56,092 nt of DNA from Methanosaeta sp. PtaB.Bin018. Its GTDB lineage: Archaea > Halobacteriota > Methanosarcinia > Methanotrichales > Methanotrichaceae. Made by a program: the position numbers and the translations under genes. Shown one piece after another: positions 48,674 to 53,431 of the stretch; the stretch's first letter is position 1; each line of letters begins with the position of its first letter. The stretch covers positions 1-56,092 of the forward strand of contig MVQH01000059.1 of assembly GCA_002067755.1 (NCBI GenBank). The letters are read 5' to 3'. Under the pieces are notes generated by a model that did not search any database, was not told the DNA's origin, and saw only the letters and a program-made list of their open reading frames with translations.

Positions 48674-48846
48674 ATTGCTTGACCAAAGAAAATTTTTTTT
48701 GTCTTATTGTATGAGATTCTCTGAAGAGCAAACGGAGTGCCTGCATGACATTTCTACAAGCCAATTTCTTCAAGGAGCCATTTTTTTTTGGATCTTATTC
48801 ATCTTTTTTATTCATCTTTTCAAGATCGAATGAATTAAATGCTCTG

Positions 48847-49629
48847 ATGTCCCAAGTCCCGTGCGTGAAAATAATATACTGTAAAGGGTACGAAGAGAGG
48901 TATCCTGCAAACCCAGTAGAAAATCCGGACAGGGTCAGATTGTCGATGGAAGAATTGAGAAAGGAAGGCTACGATTTCGTAGAACCCATTTATGCATGTC
49001 TGGATGACATATCAAGGGTGCATGGCAAAGAGCACATTGACAGAGTGCGTCGCAGCAGCCACTTCGCTATTGCGAGCCTCGCTGCCAGTGGGGCCATCAC
49101 CGCGGCTGAATTGGCTTTGCAGGGCGAGCCTGCATTCGCTTTGATCCGGCCTCCTGGACATCATGCTTCTGCAAATAGAGCATGGGGGATGTGCTACTTC
49201 AATAATATGGCAATTGCAGTGCAGAAGATAAGGCCGAAGGCGAAGCGAGTGTTGATCATCGATATTGACCTTCATTTCGGCGATGGTACAGTCAGCATCT
49301 TTCGTGGGGACCATCGCGTAAGAGTCGTAAATCCTGGATCAATTGATATCAACTTCGATTATCTGAGCATGGATGTAAGTGGCTACTTGGCGCAGATAAA
49401 ATCAGCGTTCAAGGATGATGACTACGACATCGTCGGAGTGTCTGCAGGCTTTGATACCTACATAAAAGACTGGGGAGGGCTTCTAGAGACAAAGGATTAC
49501 GAGACGATTGGAGAGATGATCTCTGAAGGCTCACAAAAATGCCATGGAAGGCGCTTTGCGATTTTAGAGGGCGGATATCATCCTGATCTTCCATTAAATA
49601 TAGTAAGTTTTATTAAAGGATTTGACTAA
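48847..49629 (+). CDS. Histone-deacetylase-fold (acetylpolyamine/AcuC-like) deacetylase
   Basis: A 260-residue arginase/deacetylase protein. PPGHHASANRAWGMCYFNN (H105/H106), zinc ligands D141, H143 in IDIDLHFGDGT and D203 in SAGFDTYIKDWGG, and Y244 in EGGYHPD complete the active site. This family deacetylates lysines of proteins or acetylpolyamines; substrate is not evident. The ATG 48847 is preferred: the frame is open from 48745 but the first 34 residues are a hydrophobic, non-homologous stretch. It is followed by a long AT-rich gap. Confidence 0.85.
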   Translation: MSQVPCVKIIYCKGYEERYPANPVENPDRVRLSMEELRKEGYDFVEPIYACLDDISRVHGKEHIDRVRRSSHFAIASLAASGAITAAELALQGEPAFALIRPPGHHASANRAWGMCYFNNMAIAVQKIRPKAKRVLIIDIDLHFGDGTVSIFRGDHRVRVVNPGSIDINFDYLSMDVSGYLAQIKSAFKDDDYDIVGVSAGFDTYIKDWGGLLETKDYETIGEMISEGSQKCHGRRFAILEGGYHPDLPLNIVSFIKGFD

Positions 49630-50689
49630 AAATTTGTATGTACTCTCACTTTTTACTTGAGGATATGATCTAAATTAGTAAAATCAAAAACACTGTATAA
49701 TATGTATATTATATTAAATTTAGGTTTTGATAATATTAATAAAAATATTTTAATAAAATAATTATTATTAATTATACTATCTTACATGTACAAAAAATTA
49801 TTAAATTTTAATTATGTAAAATTATGCTGTTGTAAAAATTAATATTAAGATAGTGAAACGTTATTTTAAATTATTAATTATATGTTATATTCAATAAATT
49901 TGTTTCTCGATGTCGTGTTGATCTCTCGGTGGTACAAGGGATTATTCTAAGAATATCGGCTGATCTTATAGTCTATGTGTACAAAATCAATCTCTGCAGC
50001 GTAACATGGATTTTGTTAGGAGGATTATTCCAAACACTATGTGAATTTTATCTCCTTAGCGCATACACCCATCCTTCTCGACTTGATAATTCTCTCAAAA
50101 GAGGCCAATTCTTTTGAAGCCCAATTGATTCACATAAGATATAAGAATTTAAGATCTGAAGGTTAATTATATCAATCAATTTTATAGATACCATATGCAC
50201 ATGAGACTTCTATACTTTGTAAGTAACAAATATATCTATAAAAAATCTATTATTAATTTTATTAAGTTTTCAAAGAATTGCTAAATAAAATTATAAATTA
50301 TAATTTTCATCTATTGAACGTTATTTCTCCATAAAATTTGGTTACAAAAATGATATTGTTAAATTAGTTATGTTTTGTTAGAATCATAAAAAATTAGTTA
50401 AAAATTTTAATTTTTTTAATAATATAAATAATAATATGATTAATAAAATTATGTTTAATCAAAAAATTTAAATATTTTTAATTTTTTTAAATGTTTTTAA
50501 TTTTATTGTCATTGTATTCTACATTATCTTCAAAAAAGTTAGAGTTCGGAGGTTCCCAAATTAAATATATTATTAAAACCTTAAATTATATTCTATTCAT
50601 ATTCTGCAGACGAAAATGCTTCCCCCGAGTTGAACATGAACAGCGCTCAATTGTGAAGAAACACCCATGACCCGAGGTCGCCCATGTGG

Positions 50690-50722
50690 ATGAAAATGGA
50701 TCTTTGCGAGAACCATTTTCAT
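50690..50722. repeat. Inverted repeat ATGAAAATGG/CCATTTTCAT
   Basis: ATGAAAATGG (50690-50699) is a perfect reverse complement of CCATTTTCAT (50713-50722), separated by 13 bases. The second arm is the first unit of the minisatellite, so the RNA could form a hairpin and compete with the repeat units. Confidence 0.7.
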
Positions 50723-50768
50723 ACCACCATTTTCATACTACCATTTTCATACCACCATTTTCATATCA
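50713..50768. repeat. Four tandem copies of a 14-bp unit CCATTTTCATACCA
   Basis: Units at 50713-50726, 50727-50740, 50741-50754 and 50755-50768 differ by one base or so (ACCA, ACTA, ACCA, ATCA ends). There are no spacers, so this is a minisatellite, not a CRISPR. It lies about 225 bases upstream of the propeller-like gene and may be an operator array. Confidence 0.85.
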
Positions 50769-50992
50769 CATGACTGAGGCGAAGCTTATGTGAGAATGTG
50801 TTGGTTGATATCAATTAAAAGTAACTGTGCCAATATTCAAGTAGTAATAGCGCGCATATATCTTATCGATTATCTTGTAGATTGTTTGGAAATGTCTTGG
50901 GCGTTCCTTTGAGTTGAAACCCAGACGTTCGACAGATCGACTGAGCACAATTCGCTTAAAAAAAACGATATCTGTAAAGAGGGAATTGCCAG

Positions 50993-52120
50993 ATGCAAGG
51001 AAAAGGTCGAAAAAAAACAAATAAGCAGAAGGAGCCATCCTCAACCTCCGTTACAGGCAAAAGAAAACCGAAAAAGGAAAGAAAACCTGCAAAATCAGAA
51101 GTAACTCCGAGCAAGCCCGAAAATCTGCGAACTGATAGAGAAACCACCCTCATGGGTCCTGTTTCAGGAAATCCCTCATTGCTTCAGAGGATTGATGGCA
51201 ATAAAGGCAACTTCGAGCTGGTTGTTCCAATGCCCGAAAGCGGCATTGCCTATTACTGGCGCAATAATGACGACGAGATGCTGCCTTGGAATGGACCTGT
51301 CAAGTTCGGTGCAGACGCCGGTCGGGTCGAGGGGGTGTCTCTCATCCAGGGAGATTTCGGTGAGAATGGCAACCTCGAACTGATAGCAACAGACCTTGGA
51401 GGCCGTCATTTGATGCATTTTTGGCACGATCCAGCCACACCTTTGGGCTGGTATGGACCAAATCAGATCTCCAAGAGATCCCTCGTTCCGGTCTTCTCAG
51501 GAAACCCAGCCATGATCTGGAGCAATTTTGGGCACAGAGGAAACTTCGACCTGGTGGTGCCGTTGGTGGCAGGCGGATTTTCTCATTACTGGCGTGATAA
51601 CGACGATCCGACATTGCCCTGGCGCGGTCCTTTTAACTTCGCCACTGATTCCGGAATATTCGACGCTGTAACGATGATTCAAAGCAACTTCGGAAGCCCT
51701 GGGAACCTTGAGATTGTTGCACGCTCAGGAGACCGGCTGGTATTCTTCTGGGGCGAGCCCGGCGAGGAGGAGATGAAATGGCACAGACCAGAGGTCATCG
51801 CAACAGGCGTTTGTGGAACGCCCTCTTTGATTCAGAGCACCTTCGGCAATAAAGGGAACTTCGAATTGGTTGTTCCTCTGTCATCAGGCGGCTTAGGTTA
51901 TTACTGGCGTGACAATGACGATGACCATCTGCACTGGTATGGACCCTTTATGTTCGGCATGAGCATGGGCCGAGTGGAAGGCGTCTCGCTCATCCAAAGC
52001 AACTTTGGAGATCCAGGACACCTGGAGCTGGTGGCTCAGGTAGGAGGCCATCTTGCATTCTTCTGGCGAGATTCCGGGCCTGACTTCAAGTGGAATGGGC
52101 CCCAGTATCTCACGATGTGA
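50993..52120 (+). CDS. Six-repeat beta-propeller-like protein with a basic N-terminal tail
   Basis: A 375-residue protein without a signal peptide. Residues 1-50 are a Lys/Arg-rich disordered tail (GKGRKKTNKQKEPSSTS…). Residues about 55-375 hold six repeats of about 52 residues in three A/B pairs: type A NPSLLQ…FGNKGNFELVVPL…GYYWRDNDD…LPWxGP, type B VEGVSLIQSNFGxxGxLELVA…FWxDS. Six repeats suggest a six-bladed propeller (inference). Similar repeats exist in many bacteria and some eukaryotes without known function; a ligand- or glycan-binding role is possible. The tail implies a nucleic-acid or ribosome contact. GAGGG lies about 8 bases upstream. Confidence 0.75.
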   Translation: MQGKGRKKTNKQKEPSSTSVTGKRKPKKERKPAKSEVTPSKPENLRTDRETTLMGPVSGNPSLLQRIDGNKGNFELVVPMPESGIAYYWRNNDDEMLPWNGPVKFGADAGRVEGVSLIQGDFGENGNLELIATDLGGRHLMHFWHDPATPLGWYGPNQISKRSLVPVFSGNPAMIWSNFGHRGNFDLVVPLVAGGFSHYWRDNDDPTLPWRGPFNFATDSGIFDAVTMIQSNFGSPGNLEIVARSGDRLVFFWGEPGEEEMKWHRPEVIATGVCGTPSLIQSTFGNKGNFELVVPLSSGGLGYYWRDNDDDHLHWYGPFMFGMSMGRVEGVSLIQSNFGDPGHLELVAQVGGHLAFFWRDSGPDFKWNGPQYLTM

Positions 52121-52195
52121 AACAATGGTCTGCGCATAATCTGGCTCTCGCATGTGGTGACAAATTTGTGGCTGACTTAAGGTCAGCCACCCATT

Positions 52196-53431
52196 TCATG
52201 TGAACATCCTCAAGTTCTCCTCCGAGCCCTGAACCTCGTCCCCGAGAACCTTGTTTATTGCACTATAAAAGTCGGATCTATTTACGCTTGATGCGTTCCT
52301 GCGCAGCGCATTCATGCCAGCCTCCACCACTATGGCCTTGAGGTCTGCGCCACTCGCCTCTCCAGTTACCTTGGCGATCTCCATCAGGTCTACATCTGGA
52401 TCTTTTCTCATCTTGCCCGCATGGATCTGCAGGATCTTGAGCCTCCCTTCGGCAGATGGCATGGGTATCTCGATGATTCTGTCAAAGCGTCCTGGCCGCA
52501 GCAGAGCGGGATCGAGGATGTCTATCCTGTTGGTCGCGGCTATGATCTTGATGTCGCCACGCGTCCTGAAACCGTCCATCTCAGCCAGAAGTTGCATCAT
52601 CGTCCTGTTGACCTCGGCGCTCCCAGTAGTACCATCGTGGGTCCTGATGCTGCCCACGGCGTCGATCTCATCGATGAATATGATGCTTGGGGCCTTCTCG
52701 CGAGCCATCTGGAAGATGTCGCGAACGAGCTGCGCTCCTTCGCCTATGAACTTGTGGACCAGCTCTGAGCCGGACATGTGAATGAATGTAGCCTTGGATT
52801 CATGGGCTACTGCCTTGGCCAGCATTGTCTTGCCAGTCCCCGGCAAACCGTAGAGCAAAACGCCCCTTGGCGGCTCAATGCCGATATCTTCGAATATCTT
52901 TGGGTTGGTCAGTGGCAACTCCACAGTCTCCCTGATCTCTTGAATCTGGCTTTCAAGGCCGCCAACCTGTTCATAGGATACATCAGGTGCCTCGACCAGC
53001 TCCATGACTTTTGCCCTGGCATCCAATGAGTGATCCAGAACGCGAACGATGGTCAGTGAGTTGTTTATAGCCACGCGAGCATTGACCTCTAGCTTCTCCA
53101 TCAGCTCAGCAGGAGCAGTGGTGATGAACTCCTGGTTGTTTCCGTGCTGCCTCAGCAGGACATAGTCGTTTCCAATCTCCACCACTGTGGCAAGGAATAA
53201 CGGCATCCTCTTCAAGAGGAGGTTCTCTTTTTTTAGCCGCTCCAGCTCACGCAGATATTTCTTATTTGCGATGAGGGATTCAAAGAGCTTGGCTCTTACC
53301 TCCTCTCTCTCCACTTTGGTGGTCTCAAGCTCTTCGGAGAGGCTCCTGTTCTCTGATTCAAGAGCTGTTATCCTTTTCGCAAACGACTCCTGAATGGTGT
53401 CTTGACCGGAAATGGCCGATGATTCACTCAT
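52196..53431 (-). CDS. pan: Proteasome-activating nucleotidase
   Basis: A 411-residue AAA ATPase. The N-terminal coiled coil (RITALESENRSLSEELETTKVEREEV, 20-45) and OB domain (LFLATVVEIGNDYVLLRQHGNN) precede the AAA domain: Walker A GLPGTGKT (195-202), pore loop HKFIGEG, Walker B IIFIDEID (250-257) and GSGADLKAIVVEAGM-type sensor 2 (ASGADLKAIV). It unfolds substrates and opens the 20S gate. The C-terminus is …RMFT, a hydrophobic-Phe-X variant of the HbYX tail. Confidence 0.95.
   Translation of the reverse strand: MSESSAISGQDTIQESFAKRITALESENRSLSEELETTKVEREEVRAKLFESLIANKKYLRELERLKKENLLLKRMPLFLATVVEIGNDYVLLRQHGNNQEFITTAPAELMEKLEVNARVAINNSLTIVRVLDHSLDARAKVMELVEAPDVSYEQVGGLESQIQEIRETVELPLTNPKIFEDIGIEPPRGVLLYGLPGTGKTMLAKAVAHESKATFIHMSGSELVHKFIGEGAQLVRDIFQMAREKAPSIIFIDEIDAVGSIRTHDGTTGSAEVNRTMMQLLAEMDGFRTRGDIKIIAATNRIDILDPALLRPGRFDRIIEIPMPSAEGRLKILQIHAGKMRKDPDVDLMEIAKVTGEASGADLKAIVVEAGMNALRRNASSVNRSDFYSAINKVLGDEVQGSEENLRMFT

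Follow-up and report, generated by a model that had tools for sequence, protein, structure and literature searches.

The window analysed here, a stretch of 56,092 nucleotides from contig MVQH01000059.1 of Methanosaeta sp. PtaB.Bin018 (assembly GCA_002067755.1, 2.2 Mb, 95.9% complete), carries a gene for a lectin-like protein without a leader, in which a basic tail precedes six repeats (Table 1). On its 5' side, a long AT-rich spacer separates it from a gene with a histone-deacetylase domain (48745-49629), and on its 3' side it converges with an AAA ATPase gene on the opposite strand. Between the two convergent genes lies a 15-nt inverted repeat (52162-52196; 87%, 5-nt loop) that is possibly their shared terminator; it is absent from the list produced by a terminator scan.

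Table 1. Features of the locus, with positions in the window and the basis of each assignment.
Feature	Residues	Position	Strand	Basis
AT-rich intergenic spacer, 1363 bp, 26.6% GC, no function found		49630..50992		composition, Rfam, spacer comparison
Minisatellite, 14 bp x 4.1 copies		50712..50769	+	only occurrence in assembled genome
GAGGG, likely ribosome-binding site		50979..50983	+	9 nt 5' of ATG
Lectin-like propeller gene, leaderless, basic N-terminal tail	375 aa	50993..52120	+	ATG start; ORF
Basic disordered tail	1-54	50993..51154	+	pLDDT<50 at residues 1-53; composition; start-codon tests
Blade 1, type A	59-112	51167..51328	+	model, repeat scores, blade tree
Blade 2, type B	113-169	51329..51499	+	model, repeat scores, blade tree
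Blade 3, type A	170-223	51500..51661	+	model, repeat scores, blade tree
Blade 4, type B	224-274	51662..51814	+	model, repeat scores, blade tree
Blade 5, type A	275-328	51815..51976	+	model, repeat scores, blade tree
Blade 6, type B	329-375	51977..52117	+	model, repeat scores, blade tree

The spacer is the longest and most AT-rich of the eight gaps of at least 250 bp among those listed between open reading frames of at least 100 amino acids, and its size, composition and minisatellite agree with a preliminary description of the locus. At up to three mismatches, the 25-nt double unit of the minisatellite has no other site in the assembled genome. The same description had read the region as a hint of special control, a suggestion that found no support: Rfam gave no match at E≤1 within 49500-52300, comparison with the spacer of the orthologue G021 revealed low-complexity AT-rich similarity and nothing else, and sigma-70-like sites numbered 13 as compared to 8.9 ± 3.1 expected under a bacterial model that is weak for an archaeon.

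The strict alternation of three A/B repeat pairs that had been noticed in the translation is evident from blade scores, identities and the blade tree alike. Pairwise blade scores average 95.0, as compared to 1.9 ± 2.4 when these residues are shuffled (300 rounds, highest value 9.6), and mean identities amount to 55% for A-A, 45% for B-B and 35% for A-B comparisons, with same-type pairs exceeding A-B pairs in each of the seven orthologues (window protein included). In a tree of 52 blades, A and B form two groups, one blade of the L018 protein (eCIS_6B) standing apart at the root; the set comprises 42 blades from the seven orthologues, two from PA14_L023, two of the six from a Paenibacillus fusion and six from L018, and leaves aside those from Rhodobacter, Burkholderia, Streptomyces and G018. 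A further alignment (A2) holds 30 blades, namely six each from the window protein, L003, L004 and L005, two from L019 and four from L006. The ring is under purifying constraint, with pN/pS values of 0.17-0.32 versus 0.60-0.87 for the tail, synonymous sites being near saturation.

An AlphaFold2 model based on a seven-row alignment of the orthologues (A1) contains 24 strands in six groups of four (pTM 0.79, mean pLDDT 80.7), and the earlier guess of a six-bladed propeller is thus borne out by prediction. The alternative of another fold fails, as AlphaFold2, Foldseek and VIA-align all return a propeller. In a Foldseek search of the PDB, ranks 1-19 are taken exclusively by PLL-type lectins (PLL, PLL2, PLL3, PLL4, PHL, and BP39L) with E values of 1.9e-11 to 1.9e-10 (3.6e-11 for 6gxr). 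VIA-align, which re-scores the Foldseek list, places six-bladed AAL-type lectins (Z up to 28.3) and sialidases (Z up to 27.6) at the top; its best 50 rows lack a PLL chain although Foldseek puts these lectins first, which is no argument against kinship. Since sialidases and six-bladed lectins receive similar Z scores, the ring fold alone does not give the function. Both sets of results fit a PLL-like sequence in what is predicted to be a six-bladed ring.

Sequence profiles point to the same relatives. The window protein matches the NCBIfam model BP39L_fam_lectin (E 4.3e-10; 39 bits, curated cut-off 400), while the six other orthologues match beta_propeller_lectin (best E 5.8e-18), and the best orthologue reaches 65 bits against NF052348 (curated cut-off 200). 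At E≤0.001, all NCBIfam matches of the orthologues are to lectin models (BP39L, CV39L, and the generic beta-propeller lectin), each well below its curated cut-off. A blade profile searched against the PDB ranks PLL2 first with five blades in register, a weak match at E 0.2. No match to the window protein was obtained from Pfam above cut-off (nor from its fungal-lectin family at E≤1), from phrogs, or from phage records, where the Paenibacillus module was likewise without a match; among PDB sequences, phmmer with the whole protein gave no relevant match and a whole-protein profile none at E≤1. The statement that the repeats lack known function was nevertheless too strong, as the blades are related to the sugar-binding PLL, BP39L, and CV39L lectins. 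There is good support both for the fold and for a relationship with PLL-type lectins, and since the members of that group have seven blades, the protein, with its modelled ring of six, is a relative of these known bacterial lectins and not a strict member.

How far the sugar sites persist was judged against PHL, for which the structural paper describes a hydrophobic (fucose) site with the stacking residue Trp199 and a polar (galactose) site formed by Arg186, Glu188, Trp202, Gln251, and Trp259 (PMC5584973). At the fucose-stacking position PLL2 shows W/W/Y/Y/W, whereas window-type blades have no such residue. A motif search, its pattern admitting nothing but E/D at one site and a limited choice of residues at the Trp and Gln positions, matched 49 of the 52 blades; in none of these 49 is the stacking position occupied by Trp or Tyr, small or aliphatic residues being found instead apart from one Phe, and the three unmatched blades, left out of all counts, show T, V, and A by eye. 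Going by these residues, the stacking Trp is lost in window-type blades. By contrast, the strand-C Trp equivalent to Trp202 is kept in 47 of 49 blades and is followed by Arg at the Gln251 position in 42, both being lenient tests owing to the restricted Trp and Gln positions of the pattern; the Arg186 position has changed to Asn (38/49) or His (7/49). A galactose-type pocket looks to be kept in altered form, and because the strand-C Trp persists while the fucose aromatic is replaced, the ring probably retains polar pockets, at most six, whose chemistry has changed. Sugar binding appears likely, although the pockets could, given the lost fucose Trp and two differing polar-site residues, have switched role, for example, to protein binding.

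The basic tail of about 50 residues noted earlier is real and comprises 54 residues, its placing being corrected to the N-terminus. With 17 K/R and six D/E it has a net charge of +11 and a pI of 10.6, as compared to -16 and 4.9 for the propeller. In all seven orthologues, the ring (net -11 to -22) follows an N-terminal tail of 53-102 residues that is rich in K/R (net +5 to +11); the sequence of this tail drifts while its positive charge persists, falling to +7 and +5 in L004 and L005, the two most divergent. An artefact of start-codon choice is excluded, since the tails of three orthologues (L008, L003, and L004) contain no ATG, GTG, or TTG beyond their first four codons, so that translation must take in the tail, and the GAGGG box is also kept in G021. 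A hydrophobic export segment is absent, the maximum 11-residue Kyte-Doolittle mean within the first 60 residues being -0.15 as compared to 3.06 in the exported PA14_L023; the lack of an export signal stated previously thus holds by a hydropathy test, as distinct from a trained signal-peptide predictor. The PLL lectins of Photorhabdus are described with variable N-terminal tails of about 30 residues, for the most part not visible in crystals, whose function is unclear and which are not identified as signal peptides, and PLL2 and PLL3 were detected extracellularly though leaderless (PMC12203525); in PLL3, the N-terminal peptide fills a putative sugar pocket (PMC6943638). A leaderless, tailed lectin therefore has precedent, and what sets the present one apart is how strongly basic its tail is.

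Counting partial matches, the gene is represented in 10 of 50 Methanotrichaceae genomes and in five of 11 genera. The matches consist of seven full-length genes (that of the window among them), a PA14-A/B protein (G031), a diverged protein of 356 residues (G018), and a fragment (G003). A phylum-wide sample of 294 genomes yielded two matches, both in Methanotrichaceae. Species genomes of Bacteria and Archaea, scanned with the window protein as single query, gave at least six loci: four of the seven orthologues, that of G018, and one in Rhodobacter whose product combines six repeats with DUF7689. Plasmid records contributed a Paenibacillus matrixin fusion with 47% identity over 316 residues, besides weaker matches in Burkholderia, Streptomyces, Rhodococcus, and Streptomycetaceae. 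In G003, a 99% complete genome, a fragment of the last blade is all that is left of the lectin (C7:46517-46663, L024), with M6 and SurE genes together elsewhere, and is a probable relic of gene loss. The preliminary description had also hinted at horizontal gain, which the identity to the Paenibacillus plasmid protein makes plausible for the module. For the window gene itself it is unsupported, given the spread over five genera of one archaeal family, a GC content (0.516) equal to that of the window (0.513), and the loss suggested by the G003 relic.

Elsewhere, the A/B module is found on larger proteins. In the Paenibacillus sonchi matrixin (M10; L019), three A/B pairs are fused to the protease and are nearly identical to each other, which marks them, at the sequence level, as recently amplified. 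An astacin-like M12 protease (L092:4308-5939, plus strand) is likewise fused to three pairs; its viral contig carries a terminase large subunit, so that this fusion is possibly prophage-borne, and its single-sequence model (mean pLDDT 33.9) was left out of the evidence. The viral contig L018 (30,486 bases, of which 13,005 were covered) encodes two phage-sheath matches, an AAA ATPase, and a 906-residue protein ending in three A/B pairs, and resembles the locus of an extracellular contractile injection system or a similar particle. Lastly, a protein with a hydrophobic N-terminus and a PA14 domain (L023:8010-8900, minus strand; G031) has a single blade pair, and as a closed ring takes more than two blades, a trimer is suspected. 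Phage-sheath genes were moreover seen in 13 of 50 Methanotrichaceae genomes, which points to the presence of contractile particles or proviruses.

Gene neighbourhoods are shared in part. SurE lies near the lectin in three of the seven loci (L003, L025, and L026, representing three other genera), and in two of them the gene in between encodes a metalloprotease of the M6 type that lacks an evident signal peptide (L003:6218-7657 and L026:6607-8175); at the other four, including the window, neighbours differ as far as the contigs extend. SurE is present in 47 of 50 family genomes. Close-type M6 relatives (E≤1e-169) occur in four, in two of which they adjoin the lectin gene; a search of the window's genome returned no M6 homologue. 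Together with the two metzincin fusions, the M6 neighbours hint at lectin-protease teamwork, though the count is small, and a lectin-guided M6 protease partnership would be plausible in the two related genera with an adjacent M6 gene.

The conserved pattern of repeats, the fold prediction and the kinship with the lectin family are all computed results, to which our preferred reading adds a localisation and a role for the tail, both of which we infer. This reading holds the protein to be a leaderless, multivalent, six-bladed lectin of the PLL lineage (three A/B pairs in pseudo-threefold arrangement) with a polycationic anchor, and we give it a probability of roughly 0.6. In each inter-blade groove, a sugar would stack against the strand-C Trp, a conserved residue, and would have the conserved GNFE Glu and the WRDN Arg as putative hydrogen-bond partners, so that one ring might offer up to six weak sites and bind dense glycans by avidity. 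The protein may be released or displayed via a non-classical route or lysis, for which PLL2 and PLL3 of Photorhabdus would be the precedent, whereupon the flexible tail could tether it to anionic polymers (nucleic acid or those of the cell envelope or extracellular matrix), leaving the acidic ring to contact glycans on the same cell or on adjacent ones. The presence of related modules on exported or targeting-type proteins (the PA14, matrixin M10, astacin-like M12, and 906-residue L018 proteins) was counted in favour of a lectin.

The missing export segment, the disorder of the tail in the model and its net charge of +5 to +11 in all seven orthologues despite an unconserved sequence would also suit an intracellular scaffold, in which the tail sits on DNA, RNA, or another polyanion and the partners of the propeller are proteins or glycosylated intermediates instead of glycans outside the cell. 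We consider this improbable, as the nearest relatives by sequence and Foldseek are lectins, PLL lectins also lack signal peptides and yet two were found outside cells (PMC12203525), and the tail charge declines in L004 and L005. Slightly less probable again is a propeller that is no lectin at all, such as a sialidase-like protein that has degenerated or a module with a purely structural role in protein-protein contacts; the high sialidase Z scores and the lost fucose site speak for it, whereas the Asp-box is absent, PLL lectins come first in Foldseek, and NCBIfam returned lectin models only. Injection-system cargo can carry disordered N-terminal signals, and the tail might accordingly be a loading signal, given that the module occurs on the L018 contig with its sheath genes and that such genes are found in some Methanotrichaceae. 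This cargo reading is disfavoured and very unlikely: the genome of the window has no sheath gene, sheath genes are present in three of seven genomes with a full-length lectin versus 10 of 43 without (Fisher p=0.36), and in those three they lie on contigs other than that of the lectin.

A broader proposal, which we regard as a tentative one with the odds against it, is that the A/B pair is a portable two-blade lectin unit from which rings were built more than once, the leaderless methanogen form using its tail as an electrostatic anchor and, in some genera, an M6 partner. Rings would arise by triplication within the chain in Methanotrichaceae, the Paenibacillus metzincins, and the contractile-tail locus, and perhaps by trimerisation of the single exported PA14-A/B chain. 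Evidence for repeated triplication is partial: the near-identical Paenibacillus pairs favour it, but in the pair tree, rooted at the midpoint, the archaeal pairs fail to group as a single clade, and support is low or middling at many nodes.

Several known propellers can be set beside the favoured six-bladed lectin. Sialidases differ by the Asp-box SxDxGxTW, which the window protein lacks when read by eye, and VCBS/FG-GAP propellers by the DxDxDG cation motif, in place of which it has acidic DNDD loops (both motifs as quoted in PMC9218822). The six-bladed fucose lectins AAL, FleA, and AOL, along with RSL, share the ring (VIA-align Z 26-28 over 265-300 residues), but differ in sequence (8-14% identity) and sugar-site chemistry, the PHL paper setting the hydrogen-bond site of AAL against the Trp site of PLL (PMC5584973). 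The two-blade unit as building block also recalls RSL and BambL. These are trimers of two-blade chains, and the present protein would be a natural case of such a unit reused for rings. Metzincin fusions have the same three A/B pairs, but are joined to a protease and have no comparable basic tail. BP39L and CV39L (NF052349, NF052350; PDB 6gxr, 6gxs), the lectins behind the NCBIfam and Foldseek matches, have seven blades and PDB chains of about 360 residues, and the orthologues score about one tenth of the curated cut-offs. The open-access literature, the scope of our search as distinct from subscription journals, yielded no paper on an archaeal six-bladed PLL-type protein. Acetate-consuming methanogens build anaerobic granules, and the protein would be a candidate adhesion factor in such organisms. 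Closest overall is the PLL family of Photorhabdus (PLL, PLL2, PLL3, PLL4, and PHL), which shares four-stranded blades, the core G-x-[FL]-E...L-x-x-x-W in register over five PLL2 blades, and, in the published parts considered, leaderless chains with variable N-terminal tails unseen in crystals. It differs by its seventh blade and its fucose-stacking Trp/Tyr, and in those parts by shorter tails without the strongly basic character and by the absence of any described A/B alternation. As the PLL-type lectins in the literature surveyed in part here are bacterial and seven-bladed, a six-bladed, threefold version in acetate-consuming methanogens would extend this lineage to Archaea.
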